A DNA stretch of 64,000 nt from an uncultured Colwellia sp. Lineage in GTDB: Bacteria; Pseudomonadota; Gammaproteobacteria; Enterobacterales; Alteromonadaceae. A program made the position numbers and the translations under genes. This document shows, one piece after another, positions 55,232 through 64,000 of this stretch. Every line of letters starts with the position of its first letter. Within the stretch, counting starts at the first letter, position 1. The DNA is taken from positions 1 through 64,000 of the forward strand of contig CAJXQI010000009.1 of NCBI GenBank assembly GCA_913058395.1, given 5' to 3'. Under the pieces are notes generated by a model. The model saw only the letters and a list, made by a program, of their open reading frames with translations. It was not told the origin of the DNA and searched no databases.

Positions 55232-55445
55232 GAACTTACTGGTTTTCTTATTGCATTAAATACAAGTTCGCCTGATGCATAGATTAATTATTCCAAAAAT
55301 GAAAACTTTATGGCTAAGTAAAATTCATCATCAGTAACAAATTGATGGCTCAGCCTAATAGAATTCAAAATGAAAAATGTTATACTGCACAGAGTTTTAT
55401 ATCGTTTTTATAATTTCCATTAAACAACAGCGCTTCAGGACAATT

Positions 55446-56633
55446 ATGCCCCAAATTAAGGTTAATCGAGCCACTAGAAAACCAATAAAGTTACTTACTT
55501 TTATCGGCTCTGTTTTATTAAGTGTTTGCTCTCTTTCTCATGCTCAAACCATTATCCCATCAGCACCGGAAGTAAATGCCAAAGGTCATATATTAATTGA
55601 CTACAACACAGGTAAAGTTATCGCAGAAAGTAATGCTGATATTTTACTTGCGCCAGCAAGCTTAACCAAAATGATGACCAGTTACATCATAGGTAAAGAG
55701 CTTGATAGCGGTAATATTAAAAATGATGACTTAGTTACTATAAGCGAAAATGCGTGGGCGAAAAACTTCCCTGACTCTTCAAAAATGTTTATTGAAGTGG
55801 GTACCGAAGTTTCAGTAAATTTATTAAACCAAGGTATTATCGTTGCCTCAGGTAATGACGCTTGTGTTGCTATGGCAGAACATATTGCTGGTAGTGAAGA
55901 CGCATTTGCTCAGTTAATGAATGCCCACGCTGAACAATTAGGCATGCACAGCAGCTTTTTTGAAAACAGCCATGGTTTAGACAGCCAAGAACATAAAACC
56001 ACAGCACGTGATATGGCAACATTAGCTATGGCGCTTATTCGCGACGTACCAACTGAGTACAAAATTTATAGCCAGAAATCGTTTTCTTATAACAACATCA
56101 AGCAATACAACCGCAATAGTTTATTGTGGGATAAAAGCATGAATGTTGACGGTTTAAAAACCGGTCACACTTCACAAGCAGGTTATAGTCTAGTAACTTC
56201 AGCAACTAAAGGCGATATGCGCCTAGTTAGTGTTGTTATGGGTACTAATAGCGAGCGTGCACGTAAAGTAGAGAGTAAAAAATTACTTAATTACGGTTTC
56301 CGCTTCTTTGAAACTTACACACCATATAAGGCAGGTGAAAAGTTTGTTAGTAATCGTGTTTGGATGGGAGATCGTGAAGAAGTTGATTTAGGCATCATGG
56401 TAAACACGCCAATTACCATCCCTCGCGGACAACGTAAAAATTTACAAGCGAACTTTGAGCTAGATAAGCAACTGACTGCACCGTTACAAAAAGGCGCTGT
56501 TGTTGGTAAGTTATTCTTACAACTAGACGGTGAAGATATTGCTCAATACCCACTAGTTACTTTACAAGATGTTCAAGAAGGCAGCATGCTTAACAAGTTA
56601 ATGGATTATGTAAAACTGCAATTTGCGAACTAA
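55446..56633 (+). CDS. dacA: D-alanyl-D-alanine carboxypeptidase (PBP5)
   Basis: Trims the terminal D-Ala from peptidoglycan stem peptides. The 395-residue protein has a signal peptide (cleavage near SHA-QT, ~33), Ser72/Lys75 (APASLTKMM), SGN at 135-137 and KTG at 238-240 (DGLKTGHTS), a C-terminal beta domain and an amphipathic membrane anchor (NKLMDYVKLQF). ATG 55446 is chosen because AGGA lies 5 nt before it; an upstream in-frame start at 55377 would disrupt the signal peptide. Closed by a terminator. Confidence 0.96.
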   Translation: MPQIKVNRATRKPIKLLTFIGSVLLSVCSLSHAQTIIPSAPEVNAKGHILIDYNTGKVIAESNADILLAPASLTKMMTSYIIGKELDSGNIKNDDLVTISENAWAKNFPDSSKMFIEVGTEVSVNLLNQGIIVASGNDACVAMAEHIAGSEDAFAQLMNAHAEQLGMHSSFFENSHGLDSQEHKTTARDMATLAMALIRDVPTEYKIYSQKSFSYNNIKQYNRNSLLWDKSMNVDGLKTGHTSQAGYSLVTSATKGDMRLVSVVMGTNSERARKVESKKLLNYGFRFFETYTPYKAGEKFVSNRVWMGDREEVDLGIMVNTPITIPRGQRKNLQANFELDKQLTAPLQKGAVVGKLFLQLDGEDIAQYPLVTLQDVQEGSMLNKLMDYVKLQFAN

Positions 56634-56997
56634 ACAGCGGCATAATCTGCACTCACGACTACCAGTGTAAAAGTAATTACTAGATATTATTTGAAAACTA
56701 AGTCTAATCAAAAAACTCAGCTTTAGCTGAGTTTTTTTTGGCTACTAAAAATTAGCCATAATTATTTTTATAATTTAACTGCGATAAAATCGTAATAAAA
56801 CATTGATATTAGATAAATCCCCCTCATTTAATAGCTCATATTGACAAGCAAATTCACGACGACTGATCACATTTACTAGAAATAGTGCTAAAATATCGCC
56901 AATTTAAACATACAGTCGTTACATTGATTGGCTTTAATAGTTAATCCTTTAAAACAACCCTAAGCGTACTGGTGTTGTATAGCGTAAGAGAAAGCAA
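56634..56997. other. Spacer between dacA and ybeD
   Basis: About 360 bp with the dacA terminator at 56713-56739 and, after it, an AT-rich stretch expected to hold the promoter of ybeD-lipB-lipA. No gene or RNA was recognised. Confidence 0.5.
56713..56739 (+). terminator. Rho-independent terminator of dacA
   Basis: AAACTCAGC/GCTGAGTTT stem (9 bp) with loop TTTA, followed by a run of eight T. About 80 nt after the dacA stop. Confidence 0.92.
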
Positions 56998-57261
56998 ATG
57001 AAAACTAAGTTTGATGAATTACTAGAATTTCCAACCGTATTAAATTTTAAAGTGATGGGCGTTGCCTGTGACGAACTTCCTGATCTTGTGATAGGTGAAT
57101 TGCAAAAGCATACACCAGGTGATTATGTACCGAAAATAAAGCCAAGCTCAAAAGGAAATTACCATTCACTTTCAATCGCCGTTACCGTAACAAGTAAAGA
57201 GCACATTGAAAAAATATATAAAACGCTTACTGCAATTGAGCAGGTACGTTACGTTCTTTAA
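56998..57261 (+). CDS. ybeD: YbeD family protein (DUF493)
   Basis: An 87-residue protein (E. coli YbeD has 87) with the ACT-like fold of DUF493. The N-terminus MKTKFDELLEFPTVLNFKVM and the end EQVRYVL are typical. The family sits between dacA and lipB in gammaproteobacteria; the function is unknown, and a regulatory small-molecule-binding role has been suggested by the fold. AAGAGAAAG precedes the ATG. Confidence 0.95.
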   Translation: MKTKFDELLEFPTVLNFKVMGVACDELPDLVIGELQKHTPGDYVPKIKPSSKGNYHSLSIAVTVTSKEHIEKIYKTLTAIEQVRYVL

Positions 57262-57337
57262 CCCTACTTTTACAGGGGTGCATTCCAGTTATAATTTGGA
57301 TATACTGCTTACCATCAAAATTTTATAGAGATATATC

Positions 57338-57997
57338 TTGAAAAATACATTGATTATTCGGCAACTAAATAACAGTGACTATGTCGATGTTTGGCATGCC
57401 ATGCAAAATTTCACCGATAATCGAGATGAAAATACTGCCGATGAGCTTTGGTTAGTTGAACATCCTCCGGTGTTTACGCAAGGGCAAGCAGGTAAAGACG
57501 AACACTTATTAATGCCTGGCGATATTCCGGTAGTTAAAGTTGATCGTGGCGGGCAAGTGACTTATCACGGCCCTGGCCAACAAGTTATTTACTTTATGAT
57601 TAATTTACGCCGAAGAAAAATGGGCGTAAGAGAACTTGTCACACTTGTTGAAGATGGCATCATCGCTTCAATGGCCGACTTTGGCATCATTGCCAAAGCC
57701 AAGGCTGATGCACCTGGTGTCTATGTTGACGATAAGAAAGTTGCATCGTTAGGCTTACGCATCCGCAAAGGCTGTTCTTTTCATGGCTTAGCACTGAACG
57801 TTAATATGGATTTATCACCATTCCTACGCATTAACCCGTGTGGTTACCAAGGCTTAGAAATGGTACAAACAATCGATCTACAAGGTCCAGCCTCTGTAGA
57901 GCAAGCAGGTGATTCACTGGTTAAACATCTAAGTGAATTATTGCAAACCGAAAATTTATCTTATCAAACGGGATTGGACACATTACATGACCACTAA
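57338..57997 (+). CDS. lipB: Octanoyltransferase LipB
   Basis: Moves octanoate from acyl carrier protein to lipoate-dependent enzymes. The 219-residue protein has [53 protein letters not shown] and [14 protein letters not shown] with the catalytic Lys and Cys ([11 protein letters not shown]). The start is TTG at 57338 with GAG upstream, and the N-terminus aligns with E. coli LipB. It overlaps lipA by 11 nt. Confidence 0.96.
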
Positions 57998-58955
57998 ATC
58001 ATCACGCATTACTCCTGGTACTAAATTACGTGACGCCGAAAAAATGGCGCACATCCCTATTAAAGTTGTTACATCTGAACGGGAAACTATGCTGAGAAAG
58101 CCTAACTGGTTGCGTATTAAGTTACCAAAAAGTTCTGAACGTATTGATGGCATCAAAGCGGCATTGCGTAAGCATGACTTGCATTCAGTTTGTGAAGAAG
58201 CATCATGTCCGAACTTATCGGAATGTTTTAACCACGGTACCGCAACGTTTATGATCTTAGGTGACATTTGTACGCGCCGTTGCCCATTTTGTGATGTTGG
58301 CCATGGTCGTCCACTTGAAGCAGATAAAGCCGAGCCGCGTAAATTAGCCTTAACGCTTAAAGACATGAAGTTAAAGTATGTTGTGATCACCTCAGTTGAT
58401 CGTGACGATCTTCGTGACGGCGGCGCACAACAGTTTGCTGATTGTATTACTGAAATTGCTGAACATTCTCCACATACTAAAGTTGAAATTTTAGTACCTG
58501 ATTTCCGTGGTCGTATGGATCGTGCCTTAGAGATTTTAAATAAAAACCCTCCAGGTGTTTTCAACCACAACCTTGAGACTGCACCGCGCTTATATACCAA
58601 AGCTCGTCCAGGGGCTAACTACCAATGGTCTTTAGATTTATTGAAGAAATTTGGTGAAGCTAACCCAACCGTACCAACTAAGTCAGGTATCATGGTAGGT
58701 TTAGGTGAAACTAACGAAGAAATTATCCAAGTGATGCGTGACTTACGTGCACACGGCGTCACTATGTTAACCATTGGTCAGTATTTACAACCAAGTAAAC
58801 ATCACTTACCTGTTGAGCGTTACGTTCACCCAGATGATTTTGACATGTTTAAGCGTGAAGCCGATAAAATGGGCTTCCATCACGCCGCTTGTGGCCCATT
58901 GGTACGCTCAAGCTACCATGCTGATAAGCAAGCCGCTGGTGAAGAAGTAAAGTAA
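57987..58955 (+). CDS. lipA: Lipoyl synthase LipA
   Basis: Radical SAM enzyme that inserts two sulfur atoms into protein-bound octanoate. The 322-residue protein (E. coli 321) has the auxiliary-cluster motif [12 protein letters not shown] and the radical-SAM motif CTRRCPFC, plus the C-terminal VRSSYHAD with the Ser ligand of the auxiliary cluster. ATG 57987 is chosen over an earlier in-frame start at 57933 that lies within lipB. Auxiliary-cluster repair needs IscS-type sulfur delivery; isc genes are elsewhere in this window. Confidence 0.97.
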
Positions 58956-59062
58956 GGTTTTTTGATACAGAAAAGCCCCACGCGTTCACATCAAGTGACC
59001 GTCGTTCGCATTTCGCTCAAAGCTTAGAGCTAAAAACTCAGAACTCAAAAACTTTAATATAA

Positions 59063-59095
59063 AAAAAGCTAGAAGATAATCTTCTAGCTTTTTTG
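59063..59095. terminator. Bidirectional terminator between lipA and the AgmX-like gene
   Basis: GCTAGAAGA/TCTTCTAGC stem (59068-59076 and 59080-59088) flanked by A on the left and T on the right, so it can stop transcription from both convergent operons. Confidence 0.88.
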
Positions 59096-59131: not shown

Positions 59132-60100
59132 TTAACGTGGTAAAAACTCAATTGCCCACACTGTTGTCATTAACTCAACATCTTCTGCGCCAAAGTCTAT
59201 CGAACGTAAAATTATCAACAGCTGCCTTTCTAACTTGGCATTATCTAATTCACTAGATTCAATAAATACTTCGCTAATAGCACCATTTGGTTGGATCTCA
59301 ATATTAAATACCACTTTACCTTTTAATAACGGATCTTTACGTAGTGCTCTGTTGTATAAAGCATAAAGTCTAGCTTTACTGGCTTCTAAAGTTTGTCTTA
59401 ACTTCATTTCAGAGCGAACATTAGCTAAGCCTTGACTGTCAGCGTATTGTTCTTCACCTTCACCACTAGCAATAACTTCTTCATCCGATAATCGTATGGT
59501 TTGCGTGTTATGAGTACTCAATTCGTCACTTGCAACGGTTTGGCTCACTTTTGCATTAGCCAAAGCGGTACTTTGTTGATTCACTTTAGCCGCCAATAAT
59601 TTGCGTTTAACCTGTGTTTGTTTCACCGCAGATTTTTGCAATTGTTGGTTTGCTTTAGGTTTTATCTCTAGCACGTCACGCATTGCCAATAATTCATCTT
59701 TCATGGCCGCTAAACCAGAAGATTGTGCTTTCTGTTTTGCTGCTTGGCGTTTATTTACCGGCTTTACAACCTCCACTTTTTTCGGTTTTGGTTCAGGAAG
59801 CTTTTTCGGCTCTGGCGGCTCTATCACCTTTTCCTCTGGTGGTTTTGGCTTAATAGGCTCAGGTGGTGGCAATTGTTTTTTCTCTATCACAATCCGTGTT
59901 AGCTGTGCTGGTACTTGCTCCTTAATTTCACGAGGGACTTCAATACGCTCAATAAAAGGTACAACCACGGCGACAGCAAAATACAGCACAATTAAAGCGA
60001 TTAGAATATTATAGAATTTTTTATCTTGGCTGGTATTAGTCAAAAAATCTAATGATATTCCTTGAGTATGAGAGGCAATTGTTAAGTTAGCATGACTCAA
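59132..60100 (-). CDS. TonB-like energy transducer with AgmX/PglI C-terminal domain
   Basis: A 322-residue inner-membrane-anchored periplasmic protein. One membrane helix (29-50) is followed by a Pro/Lys/Glu-rich rod (~75-115), a long polar helical region, and a C-terminal domain (~240-322) with KARLYALYNRALRKDPLLKG and KVVFNIEIQPNGAISEVFI, matching the AgmX/PglI family related to TonB. It is last in an operon with ExbB- and ExbD-like genes, so it probably receives force from that proton channel. Its partner in the outer membrane is unknown. AgmX proteins were named from Myxococcus gliding; motility here is not implied. Confidence 0.85.
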   Translation of the reverse strand: MSHANLTIASHTQGISLDFLTNTSQDKKFYNILIALIVLYFAVAVVVPFIERIEVPREIKEQVPAQLTRIVIEKKQLPPPEPIKPKPPEEKVIEPPEPKKLPEPKPKKVEVVKPVNKRQAAKQKAQSSGLAAMKDELLAMRDVLEIKPKANQQLQKSAVKQTQVKRKLLAAKVNQQSTALANAKVSQTVASDELSTHNTQTIRLSDEEVIASGEGEEQYADSQGLANVRSEMKLRQTLEASKARLYALYNRALRKDPLLKGKVVFNIEIQPNGAISEVFIESSELDNAKLERQLLIILRSIDFGAEDVELMTTVWAIEFLPR

Positions 60101-60103
60101 AAC

Positions 60104-60664
60104 TTACCCCTCCCCAATATTGCTACTAACAGCACTTGCAGCTTTATTTGCTGCAATTTGTTCCACTGCTAATGACATATTGCGATAATTTGCTTCTGCA
60201 CAGACTGTCATTATTTGCTTAAGTATTTGATACTCAATATTAGCATCACCTAAAATCGTAACCGCACGACCATTTTCTTGCTCTAACTCGGTTAACTCAG
60301 GTCGTTTTGACGCTTGGTAAGCCAGTTCGGTTTTTAATGCTGCCATCAACGCTTCCAAATCAGCAGCGCTTAATGCCTGTTCGTTATTAGTCGCATCTTT
60401 TTGCCAAATGGCTCTTTCTTGCACCAGCACCCGATGGTCAAAAACAGAAACAACAATATTTTCACTTGGTAGTTGCTCAGCAATTGAAACCGGTAAGTTG
60501 AGTTTTTCAGAATTTTGCAATACTCGTACTTCTGACTGATTAACAATCAAAAAGAATACTAAAATAGTAAAAATATCCATTAAGGAAACTAGATTTAACT
60601 TGCTAGCACCACCAAGGCGTTTATGATGGCGAGCTAAGCGTTTTGCTCGAAGTGACTGTTTCAT
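60104..60664 (-). CDS. ExbD/TolR-like proton-channel subunit (Asp present)
   Basis: A 186-residue protein with a basic N-terminus, one membrane helix (~25-43) and a periplasmic domain. SKLNLVSLMDIFTILVFFLI holds Asp30 at the position of the proton-carrying Asp25 of ExbD. The periplasmic part is longer than ExbD (141) and has VLQNSEKLNLPVS after the helix, as in the family. It overlaps the upstream ExbD-like gene by one base and precedes the AgmX-like gene by 3 nt. Confidence 0.88.
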   Translation of the reverse strand: MKQSLRAKRLARHHKRLGGASKLNLVSLMDIFTILVFFLIVNQSEVRVLQNSEKLNLPVSIAEQLPSENIVVSVFDHRVLVQERAIWQKDATNNEQALSAADLEALMAALKTELAYQASKRPELTELEQENGRAVTILGDANIEYQILKQIMTVCAEANYRNMSLAVEQIAANKAASAVSSNIGEG

Positions 60665-61224
60665 TATTGCACTACCTCCGTCACTTCATCAGGAGCCGCT
60701 GGAGCATCACCTAAAGAAATTTCAGGAAACAATTCTGCATCTACAACACTTGCCGCGACCACTGCTTTAAACGAGCGAACGGTGTCCATAGCCGAGACAA
60801 TGGTTTGATAGTCAATTTCTTCACTGAGCAATATTGTAATATCTTTTTTCTCAATATCTTTTTGCTGAAAAGTCAATTTCAAGTCCTGTAAGTACACGGA
60901 TAAGCCATGAAAGTCATAGCTTGAAGCGGCAACCACATCATCACTACTTTCTACTGGTACCGAGGCAAAACTTTTCAATAAAATACCACTAGGATAATTT
61001 AGCAACATTCCTTGGCTATCAATCACTAACTCTAAGCGCTTAGGCTTGTCATCAGGATCCATCGCATTATTTTCAGCACTTATCGGCAGCTGTAAATTCA
61101 AAATACGAACTTGAGAGAATACGAGGCTCAGCAATAAAACCGGCACTAGCACTATCATCAAATTCATAAATGAAGTGATATCGAGCTCGGCCTCTTGTTG
61201 AGGTGGGCGACGAAGGCGTCTCAT
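60664..61224 (-). CDS. ExbD/TolR-like subunit with Asn in place of the key Asp
   Basis: A 186-residue ExbD-like protein, the second in the operon. ELDITSFMNLMIVLVPVLLL aligns with the ExbD helix, but Asn21 stands where Asp25 of ExbD is. The motif is otherwise kept (ITSFMN against VTPFID). The periplasmic domain continues with VRILNLQLPIS. If ExbD works as a dimer inside the ExbB ring, this subunit could form a heterodimer with the Asp-bearing one. It starts 4 nt after the ExbB-like gene. Confidence 0.87.
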   Translation of the reverse strand: MRRLRRPPQQEAELDITSFMNLMIVLVPVLLLSLVFSQVRILNLQLPISAENNAMDPDDKPKRLELVIDSQGMLLNYPSGILLKSFASVPVESSDDVVAASSYDFHGLSVYLQDLKLTFQQKDIEKKDITILLSEEIDYQTIVSAMDTVRSFKAVVAASVVDAELFPEISLGDAPAAPDEVTEVVQ

Positions 61225-61228
61225 GCCC

Positions 61229-61897
61229 TTATCCTCGACTACTTACTTCAGAATGGCTTTCTGATTGATTAGATGATTGTGTTGCTAACGCATTAAGAAG
61301 TTTGCGGCCGGCCATTTCTAACGAGTCAATTATCGACATAGTTTTACTTTGTAATCCGGTATGAAATAAAATTAACGGAATAGCCGTTATCAAACCAAAT
61401 GCCGTCGTATTCATCGCCACTGAAATACTAGCTGACAGTAAGTTAGCTTTTTCTGCTGGATCTGCACTAGCAACGGCGGAGAATGCCGCGATTAAACCCA
61501 TGATAGTCCCTAACAAACCAAGTAACGTAGCAATGTTTGCTAAGGTCGCTAAAAACGGTGTGCGCTTTTCTAAGCCCATCATGTGTTCCATCAAGGTTTC
61601 TTCCATCGCATATTCAACATCTTCACGACGATTCGATTGCGATACACGACTAATACCAGCTTGTAGCACTTGCAGTACCGGAGCATTATTATTTTCGGCA
61701 GCTTCAGTTATTTTATTTAACTGCCCTGCTTTTAGTGCTGGTTGAATTTCTCTTAAGGCCTTTTTATTAGCATTTAGCGTTTTAGTTAAGTACAACCAGC
61801 GCTCTAAGGTAATCGCTAAACCAATCACTAAAACTAATGCTATTGGAAAAATAAACGCGCCGCCGTCTTGTAGAAAGCCAATGATGATGTCAAACAT
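61229..61897 (-). CDS. ExbB/TolQ/MotA-family proton channel
   Basis: A 222-residue inner-membrane protein with three predicted helices (~12-33, 112-140 and 158-185). TPFLATLANIATLLGLLGTI and MGLIAAFSAVASADPAEKA, then ISVAMNTTAFGLITAIPLIL, match the ExbB/TolQ core. It should form the pentameric ring around the ExbD helices and use the proton gradient. It is followed by two ExbD-like genes and a TonB-like gene, so the operon encodes a complete Ton/Tol-type motor of its own. Confidence 0.92.
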   Translation of the reverse strand: MFDIIIGFLQDGGAFIFPIALVLVIGLAITLERWLYLTKTLNANKKALREIQPALKAGQLNKITEAAENNNAPVLQVLQAGISRVSQSNRREDVEYAMEETLMEHMMGLEKRTPFLATLANIATLLGLLGTIMGLIAAFSAVASADPAEKANLLSASISVAMNTTAFGLITAIPLILFHTGLQSKTMSIIDSLEMAGRKLLNALATQSSNQSESHSEVSSRG

Positions 61898-62010
61898 GGT
61901 GTAAATCCTTTATTTATTACTACTAAAGCAGATAATGCATCTACCTATTAAATGGGTTTATTGATATTAATTATTTAAACAACTAAATTCGTTAGTTTTT
62001 ATTTACTGTT

Positions 62011-62337
62011 TTACTTACTATTTTTTGTTGCTGATTCTTGCTGCTGATAATAGCTATTAACCTTATCTTTAAATACTTTCGGGTTAACCGGTGATGTTGC
62101 TGGTAGTCGAATAGTTAACTCATGATCATCGATACTCAACGTTGAATTAAGCTCTTGCCACGGCGTAATATAAATCACTTTAGGCTGCTCTTGAGAGCCT
62201 TGTACCTGTGTTTCTATAACGTAAGTTGCTGGCTTTTTAGTACTAGTTACTGCTTGCTGCGCATGAGCAGTTGATAAAACAAAAAATAACGAGATAACAC
62301 TCAATATCGACACTGGCTTTTTAGCAAAAAGCTTCAT
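62011..62337 (-). CDS. Small exported protein of the ExbB operon, 108 aa
   Basis: A 108-residue protein with a signal peptide (MKLFAKKPVSILSVISLFFV, cleavage near AHA-Q). The mature part (VIETQVQGSQEQPKVIYITP and ELTIRLPATSPVNPKVF) has no Cys and no family recognised. ATG 62337 has GGAG 6 nt upstream inside the end of the TPR lipoprotein gene; the earlier in-frame start at 62352 is less likely. A 113-nt gap separates it from the ExbB-like gene, the only real gap in the operon. A periplasmic role with the motor is inferred. Confidence 0.78.
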   Translation of the reverse strand: MKLFAKKPVSILSVISLFFVLSTAHAQQAVTSTKKPATYVIETQVQGSQEQPKVIYITPWQELNSTLSIDDHELTIRLPATSPVNPKVFKDKVNSYYQQQESATKNSK

Positions 62338-62338
62338 C

Positions 62339-63124
62339 TTATTCTCCCGCATTTGTCTGTGCTAATTTTAACGATAATCCTGCCAACCAGCGCTGAACCT
62401 GTTTATCATCTTGATGAATCATTAAATATGCTTGGTAGTGTTGTTGTGCTAATGCCAACTTTCCTTGGTACAGTTCAGCTAAAATCGCTAAATTTAAATG
62501 TGCATCAGCATAGTTAGGTAAACTATTTAATGCCGCTAAATAGCTTTGCTCCGCTACTTGAAATTCTCCACGTTGACGCGCCAATACGCCATTTAAATTA
62601 TGTGCATAAGGGCTAATTGGATTGACCTTTAGTGCTTGATTAATTTTTTCTTGAGCCAGCACTAATTGCTGTGTTTTTTGCGCGATTATCGCTTGATTTA
62701 AATAGCTACCAGAAAGTTCTGGGCTTAGTACTATCACCTGAGAAAACAAATCATTTGCTTGTTGCCATTGCTCTGCTTGCATTGCCGATAGTGCGCGCTG
62801 ATATAGCTCACTAATATTGCTTGGAATACTTTGCTGCATTTGTTTTTGCTTACGCTGGTATTCTAAGCTTTGCTCAGTCGGCTTAAATGCATCTTGCTGA
62901 TTTGTATCGCTGGCTAGCTTATTGTCTGGCGGTGTAGACGACTTTTCTAATTCAGTTTCATCTACCAATGCTTTTGCTAATTTTTTCAACTCAGCTTGTT
63001 GCTCTTCAGCGCTTACAGCCTCGTCAGTGTCATTTATTGTCGAACACGCCGATAGCATCACCGTAAAAAGCCCGATAGCGATAGCATTTTTATGCTGCTG
63101 CAAATGGCGATTAAAATAACGCAT
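62339..63124 (-). CDS. TPR-repeat lipoprotein of the ExbB operon
   Basis: A 261-residue predicted lipoprotein (lipobox MLSAC, Cys27) followed by an acidic linker and about four TPR units (~110-250; for example ALSAMQAEQWQQANDLFSQV and YLNQAIIAQKTQQLVLAQEK). Related TPR proteins accompany AgmX/ExbBD genes in other proteobacteria. ATG 63124 is preferred: AGAGG lies 6 nt before it, and it overlaps the upstream TPR gene by 14 nt. Probably scaffolds the motor at the outer membrane; partner unknown. Confidence 0.82.
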   Translation of the reverse strand: MRYFNRHLQQHKNAIAIGLFTVMLSACSTINDTDEAVSAEEQQAELKKLAKALVDETELEKSSTPPDNKLASDTNQQDAFKPTEQSLEYQRKQKQMQQSIPSNISELYQRALSAMQAEQWQQANDLFSQVIVLSPELSGSYLNQAIIAQKTQQLVLAQEKINQALKVNPISPYAHNLNGVLARQRGEFQVAEQSYLAALNSLPNYADAHLNLAILAELYQGKLALAQQHYQAYLMIHQDDKQVQRWLAGLSLKLAQTNAGE

Positions 63125-64000
63125 AAATAACCTCTGGCTGCTTTTCAGTTTTATCAAATTTCGCTGGCTCTAACGTGGCAAGTGCAATAAAGCTTTTCTT
63201 AATCCATTCATCATATAAACCTTGCCAAGCGCGTTCAGCATTATTGCTATATAACTCGATCGCTTTTTCTTCAAAAGGATAAGCTAATTCTTCCAACAAA
63301 ATGCTATATTCTTCTGCCGCCAATTCATCAAGCCCTTTTGGTAGTTGCGATGCTAAAACATCAGCGGCTAATAGTTGGTACATACTGGCCAACTGATAAT
63401 TCGCTTTCGGCACAAACTCAGCTAAACCAAAACCAAACACTTGCTGGTAATAACTAACCGCCTGCTTTAATGACTTTTGCTTGCGCTTCAAGCTTTTATT
63501 AAGTGGTAATGTCAACTTAGCCGCATTAAAGCTTTGTTGATGTGCGCGACCAAGTTCATATGCCGCCATTGACACTAAGTATGTTGAACGCTGCTGCACA
63601 GCTAACTCAAGATTAATATTTGATGAGTTGGTGACACTGGTTTTATGTGAGCTTAATAGCTTTCGGTACCAGAAATAACGTTTATTTGGCTCATTGGTTT
63701 CGCGATAAAACTCTGACATTTTAAAACGCACTTCTTGCGCTATTGCAAAAGGCTCTGGATAGCTATGTGCATAAGTTCGAAAGTGGATAATAGCTTTTTC
63801 AATATCTTTAGCTTTTAGGTAGTTTTCTGCGATGCTGTATTGCAGTTCACGTTTTAGCTCAGTCGAGTCAGCAGTTTTTTGCATAATAATTAACTGTTCA
63901 GCTGCTCGATCATATTGCGCCAATTGTTGATAGCTATCAGCCAATTTTGCAGGAATACTAATGCTATATTCATGACTTGGGAATTGCTGCTGAAATGCTA
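63111..64000 (-). CDS. Large TPR-repeat protein of the ExbB operon (5' end outside window)
   Basis: The minus-strand frame stays open to the window edge; 296 codons are visible. The visible part is all-helical with TPR-like units (AKLADSYQQLAQYDRAAEQL, YSIAENYLKAKDIEKAIIHF, FVPKANYQLASMYQLLAADV), and the C-terminus ends with KFDKTEKQPEVIYALF. The full protein is probably much longer, as similar TPR proteins in these operons are. Start, signal peptide and domain order before residue 1 of the visible part cannot be seen. It overlaps the TPR lipoprotein gene by 14 nt. Confidence 0.8.
   Translation of the reverse strand, partial: AFQQQFPSHEYSISIPAKLADSYQQLAQYDRAAEQLIIMQKTADSTELKRELQYSIAENYLKAKDIEKAIIHFRTYAHSYPEPFAIAQEVRFKMSEFYRETNEPNKRYFWYRKLLSSHKTSVTNSSNINLELAVQQRSTYLVSMAAYELGRAHQQSFNAAKLTLPLNKSLKRKQKSLKQAVSYYQQVFGFGLAEFVPKANYQLASMYQLLAADVLASQLPKGLDELAAEEYSILLEELAYPFEEKAIELYSNNAERAWQGLYDEWIKKSFIALATLEPAKFDKTEKQPEVIYALF

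Follow-up and report, generated by a model that had tools for sequence, protein, structure and literature searches.

A probable Agl-Glt-type motor cluster in an uncultured Colwellia and its association with outer-membrane barrel and heme-thiol genes

We analyzed the first 64,000 nucleotides (the window) of contig CAJXQI010000009.1 (C9:1–64000), which belongs to the 4.39-Mb genome of an uncultured Colwellia sp. At its end lie the seven open reading frames (ORFs) that a first-pass annotation had claimed; all are confirmed, on the minus strand between 59132 and 63998. They encode an ExbB-type channel protein, two ExbD proteins, a TonB-like protein, a small exported protein and two tetratricopeptide repeat (TPR) lipoproteins. 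The features are as follows.

59062–59094, between the 3′ ends of the presumed lipA and the GltG-like gene: hairpin with a 15-bp stem and a T tract, from a consensus scan.
59132–60100, minus strand: GltG-like, TonB-like protein; NF033768 (AgmX/PglI C-terminal domain) at 52 bits, cut-off 40.
60104–60664, minus strand: second ExbD (AglS position), channel Asp kept (SLMD); PF02472 at 54.9 bits.
60664–61224, minus strand: first ExbD (AglQ position), Asn instead of the channel Asp (SFMN); PF02472 at 39.3 bits.
61229–61897, minus strand: ExbB/TolQ/AglR-like channel protein; PF01618 (MotA_ExbB) at 98.6 bits.
62011–62352, minus strand: sm113, a small exported protein of 113 residues; no Pfam or NCBIfam match.
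62339–63157, minus strand: GltE-like TPR lipoprotein of 272 residues; Pfam TPRs above cut-off, lipobox LSAC read from the sequence.
63111–64000, minus strand: 3′ part of the GltD-like TPR lipoprotein gene, cut by the window edge; the whole ORF is C9:63111–66365.

The one ExbB, the two ExbDs and the AgmX/PglI protein named in the first-pass annotation all score above their Pfam or NCBIfam cut-offs (25.4 bits for ExbD and 22.9 bits for MotA_ExbB in Pfam). The GltG-like protein, of 322 residues, consists of an N-terminal hydrophobic stretch, a Pro/Lys-rich stretch and the C-terminal domain. Two TPR proteins had also been called; this holds directly for the 272-residue protein, while the cut fragment of the second stays below the cut-off and its full form of 1084 residues, which has a lipobox, matches TPR_6 above it. 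The small protein sm113, which in relatives also sits between the GltE-like and ExbB genes, is predicted to consist of a signal helix, an extended middle and a C-terminal helix (AlphaFold mean pLDDT 75.9, pTM 0.31).

The set had been described as self-contained. It is not, because same-strand genes continue to position 75673: the seven genes are the 3′ half of a 15-gene, 16.5-kb run (contig positions 59132–75673), in which adjacent genes overlap or are separated by at most 113 bp and which we infer to be a single operon. A look upstream of the cut TPR gene, one of the checks proposed with the annotation, thus found both further scaffold-position genes and redox and barrel genes. The GltD-like gene is preceded on the same strand by the genes for an 807-residue protein in the GltC position and for exp188, an exported protein of 188 residues; beyond exp188 the run contains DUF3570, DUF4266, a TlpA-like thioredoxin, barrels and an HzsA-like lipoprotein. 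One barrel matches the OMP_myx_plus model at 162.3 bits (cut-off 60), and an SH3-plus-barrel protein scores 30.8 bits to the same model, under the cut-off. The HzsA-like lipoprotein, whose lipobox was read from the sequence, ends the run at 75673 and contains an HZS_alpha middle domain (55.2 bits, cut-off 26.6), a PD40 stretch and two CXXCH motifs. It shares its middle domain with the hydrazine synthase alpha subunit, but at 51.7 bits it falls far short of the equivalog cut-off (800), and it carries the lipobox in addition. The divergent genes beyond 75673 encode a 430-residue CXXCH protein (cyt430), an 811-residue LamG protein with two CXXCH motifs, a 532-residue protein with a twin-arginine-like start and no Pfam match, which we take to be DUF1501-like, and ApbE. 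Where the HzsA-like and cyt430 genes diverge, a hairpin with a 9-bp stem and T-rich flanks on both strands (C9 75774–75795) could be a regulator site or an attenuator.

An Agl-Glt core contains one gene of the ExbB/TolQ type, two of the ExbD/TolR type and a GltG/AgmX C-terminal domain, all of which are present here, and the 1 + 2 channel composition with an AgmX/PglI protein is, as had been noted, of the AglRQS/Glt type. According to passages of Luciano 2011 (PMC3169522), homologues of gltC, gltD, gltE, gltG and aglRQS are clustered, together with a single further gene, in gammaproteobacteria and some others, where the function of the cluster is described as unknown; genes of AglR, two AglQ/S and GltC/D/E/G type lie together here as well, with exp188 and sm113 as candidates for the extra gene. 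Passages of Wartel 2013 (PMC3858216) present the Agl-Glt core as a possible basal transport machinery. The Myxococcus AglRQS-Glt and AglRQS-Nfs systems have the same 1 + 2 channel and a GltG-type coupling protein, with a motor that is shared there and possibly here. The core, likened to that of Myxococcus by gene content, position and these published descriptions, is very probably of the Agl-Glt type. It differs from the published core in the barrel/heme/thiol module tied to it, in exp188 and sm113, and in an ExbD without the channel Asp. The names GltC, GltD and GltE are given here on TPR content and position only. The proteins cannot be called GltG or GltE proper, because the equivalog cut-offs of the gliding proteins are not reached: GltG scores 21.4 of 650 bits, the 322-residue protein matching the Myxococcus-type model at its C-terminus only, and GltE scores 29.5 of 225 bits, with other TPR models scoring higher. 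A surface-motility (gliding) machine, for which the Agl-Glt gene content in the available passages of PMC3169522 speaks, is a reading to which we give very little credence. Whether the gliding proteins GltA and GltB might fall into the OMP_myx_plus family is no more than a lead.

The locus shares the ExbB/TolQ and ExbD/TolR families with Ton and Tol-Pal, but here two unlike ExbDs and a large TPR scaffold are found. As the first-pass annotation had it, neither a TonB-dependent receptor nor a Pal family is among the Pfam and NCBIfam matches of the run's 15 proteins, and this is not an ordinary Ton or Tol set; the genome holds other ExbB/ExbD sets, on contigs C6 and C14. TolA, TolB and Pal have no match above cut-off in the 15 proteins, the TolB and YbgF models being far below it; the TolQ equivalog reaches 72.8 of 221 bits and TolR 24.6 of 127.3, and the tonB_Cterm model (TIGR01352) scores 16.3 bits against a cut-off of 27.1. 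These results bear on the idea of a TonB-like importer, in which the GltG-like protein would power import via the linked barrels and redox processing would then take place in the periplasm. The presence of ExbB/ExbD, a TonB-like protein and outer-membrane barrels in one run is what such an importer would be expected to show. However, the absence of a receptor among the run's matches, the low tonB_Cterm score and the other ExbB/ExbD sets of the genome all count against it, as do the ExbD asymmetry and the large TPR scaffold, features not known to us from Ton. We regard the importer as improbable. The three TonB clusters described for Teredinibacter in passages of PMC10734418 are also unlike this locus.

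Conservation of the gene order outside this genome, which had been proposed as a check, extends well beyond it. We compared 98 loci, comprising our own and 97 GltD-centered stretches of other genomes (17 + 80, the latter being 80 of 114 class-wide places, with our own locus and that of G017 covered besides), some of which end at contig ends. For the core genes found on the strand of GltD, the order exp188-GltC-GltD-GltE-sm113-ExbB-ExbD-ExbD-GltG is kept in 98/98 loci; the nine-gene core (exp188, the GltC-, GltD- and GltE-like genes, sm113, ExbB, two ExbDs and the GltG-like gene) is complete in 59 of them, and ExbB-ExbD-ExbD-GltG are present in this order in 78. Four loci (L052, L119, L122 and L128) have a single ORF of 1415–1518 residues that matches both the GltC and the GltD models, which suggests that GltC and GltD work side by side. 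The GltD-like gene was found in 17 of the 60 relatives searched (own included), in 1 of the 16 other members of its genus, and in 88 of 369 class-wide genomes (own included) from 47 families; these 88 genomes are referred to as core-positive and the other 281 as core-negative. Among 398 phylum-wide genomes, exp188 occurs in 15, all within the same class. The plasmid search returned no match to the GltD-like protein and, for the HzsA-like protein, weak partial matches in 4 records.

The first-pass annotation had expected an outer-membrane partner, not yet known. The expectation stands, and candidates are at hand in the two small barrels and the heme/thiol module just outside the window, which co-occur with the core. 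OMP_myx_plus scores above its cut-off in 56/88 core-positive and 0/281 core-negative genomes (Fisher p = 1e-43; these p-values ignore relatedness), across 30 families. HzsA-like proteins (E at most 1e-30) occur in 51/88 core-positive genomes and in 1/281 core-negative genomes, where the gene is broken (3e-37; 30 families), and DUF4266 in 69/88 and 21/281 (4e-38). In 37 of the 52 genomes with an HzsA-like gene, a GltD gene is no more than 25 kb away. At least one of nine module families is present at 57/98 loci and at least two at 47/98; Tlp is not among the nine because it is common. As an unbiased check, 554 unlabeled neighboring ORFs were clustered, and no family occurred in more than 7 loci. 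The single core-negative genome with an HzsA-like gene (G093; L187 8435–15800) has no GltD match. Its HzsA-like gene lies in two stretches split by stops, which match only positions 15–485 of 902; the search output gives a 630-residue open frame, while the sequence reading gives stops and nothing that matches the second, C-terminal half. Barrels, TlpA, DUF4266 and DUF3570 are missing from this stretch, and the divergent cyt430-LamG-DUF1501-like long ORFs remain. Since the HzsA-like gene is broken, the core and barrels are gone and the divergent cytochrome genes are left, this locus is probably a relic of the module. We consider it likely that the barrels and the redox set are functional partners of the core.

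As described in passages of Meheust 2021 (PMC8238504), a DUF3570 protein is flavinylated by ApbE at two [S/T]GA[S/T] sites and DUF4266 has a CXC tail. The flavinylation clusters of DUF3570, DUF4266, thioredoxin and ApbE described there have the same domain set as the module, but the core-linked DUF3570 proteins lack the pair of canonical sites. Our own DUF3570 has SSAS and STAS in their place. Among 35 core-linked DUF3570 proteins, none has both aligned sites canonical, 12 have one and 23 have neither (a few rows align poorly), and an [S/T]GA[S/T] motif occurs anywhere in 14. The flavin link expected from DUF3570 and ApbE was accordingly set aside, since the canonical DUF3570 motifs are mostly changed; the last Ser is often kept, so that a modified flavin site may exist. 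The C-terminal CGCN of DUF4266 is conserved in 32/32 proteins, and CxxC in 42/43 TlpA-labeled ORFs. The thiol and heme motifs, then, are conserved, and the canonical flavin sites mostly are not. Elsewhere in the same genome, on contig C13 (L186 6170–9046), there is a stand-alone, operon-like ApbE-DUF3570-DUF4266-Tlp run with a TGAS motif, beside response-regulator- and sensor-like ORFs that were named by eye. The DUF1501-like exported proteins (L010 3775–5373 and relatives) share a stretch, GDNSSTAASFF or close to it, that looks like an ApbE site; in 11 of the 12, another residue takes the place of the Gly. TGAS was considered as a new ApbE site in the DUF1501-like protein and rejected, as it is present in just 1 of 12 relatives.

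Some genomes carry two copies of the scaffold. We define a redox-linked copy as one with at least two module families, and the motor as ExbB, both ExbDs and GltG. Two copies were fetched from 15 genomes, nine of which were suitable in having enough sequence downstream of the redox-linked copy; the others were excluded for a contig end near that copy (G050, G297, G403) or because both copies have fewer than two module families (G134, G225, G259). In eight of the nine, the motor is missing from the redox-linked copy and present in the other; the one exception, G196, has the motor in both copies. Outside this count are the redox-linked motor-less loci L104 and L115 (one copy fetched) and L164 and L166 (one GltD match per genome). 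On a FastTree tree of GltD, which comes with warnings about adjoining long branches and uneven sequence composition, the redox-linked motor-less state requires 6 changes, all 6 forced by starred branches. In some genomes, a single motor may drive both scaffolds, the motor-less scaffolds borrowing the motor of the other copy. A precedent is found in passages of PMC3858216, where AglRQS of M. xanthus powers both Glt and Nfs.

Several observations weigh against a dedicated link between core and module. HzsA-like proteins are absent from 37/88 core-positive genomes and both HzsA-like and DUF4266 from 16, so that the core has to be functional on its own as well; among the 85 loci for which 8 kb or more of upstream sequence is available, 34 have none of the nine module families. 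OMP_myx_plus matches below the cut-off only occur in 26 further genomes, 2 core-positive and 24 core-negative, and DUF4266 is also found in the 21 core-negative genomes noted above. The module models were seeded from our own locus and near relatives, and the co-occurrence statistics are not corrected for relatedness (47 families for the core, 30 for the barrel). ApbE is near 26/98 loci, yet the DUF3570 flavin motifs are mostly changed, which leaves the redox chemistry ambiguous. Only four families contribute the eight motor-less cases, and motor-less copies without any module family also exist (L133, L161 and L172). The first two of these points, the 16 genomes and the 34 loci, favor a machine independent of the redox module, engaged in envelope upkeep or polymer handling, with the module as a co-inherited and often adjacent passenger. 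Such a passenger would not readily account for the one-way dependence, in which no core-negative genome has a barrel above the cut-off or an unbroken HzsA-like gene, or for an association that spans 30 families. In 14 core-positive genomes, moreover, the HzsA-like and GltD matches are on different contigs, although fragmented assemblies may hide some linkage. We therefore consider the passenger explanation unlikely, if a serious competitor, and keep to a functional partnership between core and module.

The channel proteins show an unusual asymmetry. When aligned to solved ExbDs, the first ExbD has Asn at the channel Asp (which we take to be number 25 of E. coli ExbD). Of the 78 first ExbDs, 75 have Asn here, 2 have Ser and 1 has Asp, while all 78 second ExbDs (own included) have Asp; the channel Asp is also kept in the ExbD/TolR proteins of the other sets of this genome. 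The sole first ExbD with Asp (L153 2844–3353) is from a locus with its module genes on the opposite strand, in a genome (G076) without an HzsA-like match. In alignment to solved TolQ and ExbB, transmembrane helix 3 (TM3) of ExbB reads V-A-M-N-T-T at E-A-L-I-A-T of TolQ. The Glu column is Val, Ile or Thr in 78/78 ORFs, with no Glu, and the Thr that follows this column in TM3 and the GLLGT motif of TM2 are kept in all 78. Given the Asn/Asp pair and ExbB:ExbD chain counts of 5:2, as in entry 7ajq, the simplest reading is an ExbD heterodimer with one proton site. Passages of PMC3858216 report that Asp28 of M. xanthus AglQ is required for proton conductance, whereas the ExbD at the same place here has Asn; either the order of the ExbDs would thus have been exchanged or the site would have moved. 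In the available passages of a 2022 review (PMC9120999), the authors speculate that AglQ and AglS act hand over hand. None of the PDB sequence matches bore an AglRQS name.

Gene content, gene order, co-occurrence and residue patterns, all read from sequence, allow a model to be proposed in which complex formation, rotation, force path and cargo are conditional. Five ExbB chains would make up a channel that encloses a single heterodimer of the ExbDs, in which the second ExbD alone could be protonated at the classical site, and proton flow would turn the rotor. The GltG-like rod would hand this motion to a periplasmic scaffold of GltC, the lipoproteins GltD and GltE, the coiled-coil/β-sandwich protein exp188 and sm113. 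The scaffold would, in turn, act on an outer-membrane assembly of the two small barrels and DUF3570. The client or cargo of the machine would be the diheme HzsA-like lipoprotein together with DUF4266, which ends in a CGC motif, TlpA and the divergent cyt430-LamG-DUF1501-like set. The machine might export, place or move this heme-thiol set at the surface. What is moved is the least certain step, and could be a lipoprotein cytochrome, a polymer or a conformational signal. On balance, we favor a Glt-type force transducer with an outer-membrane heme-thiol complex as its partner. That its function is to move or deploy this complex is a tentative proposal, about which we have more doubt than confidence. 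It is conceivable, though somewhat short of an even chance, that the original role of the Agl-Glt core was to power an outer-membrane heme-thiol complex by proton flow, with the OMP_myx_plus barrels and HzsA-like protein as dedicated clients, with ExbDs that work as an obligate heterodimer on a single protonatable Asp and with one motor able to drive two scaffolds of a cell, and that gliding and spore coating are later re-uses.

Downstream, the run is bordered by ordinary housekeeping genes, convergent to it at 55377–58955, which are presumably a dacA-type carboxypeptidase, a small conserved protein, lipB and lipA. The hairpin at 59062–59094 behind the GltG-like gene is a possible terminator; the scan for terminator-type hairpins found 19 sites in the region, compared to 14.3 ± 3.8 in shuffled sequences.

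The core itself is of a known kind; new here are the barrel/heme-thiol module tied to it, the ExbD asymmetry and the possible sharing of a motor in gammaproteobacteria. We found none of the three in the open-licence literature searched (titles, starts of abstracts and passages), and the supplementary gene maps of Luciano 2011 may show flanking genes. The main text of that paper (PMC3169522), the supplementary gene maps being outside our scope, mentions no ApbE, thioredoxin, cytochrome or redox, and the main text of Meheust 2021 (PMC8238504) mentions no ExbB, ExbD, MotA, TolQ, gliding or hydrazine.

The gammaproteobacterial Agl-Glt core has been without an assigned job since its description in 2011, and no later answer was found in the literature searched. 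The barrel, seen only with the core at its cut-off, and the HzsA-like protein, unbroken only with the core, name likely outer-membrane partners for it, and the function can be tested by deletions. The natural Asp/Asn ExbD pair offers a ready test of the number of proton sites that a motor of the ExbBD/MotAB type needs. The gene neighbors thus give a concrete lead on the role of this machine outside gliding bacteria.

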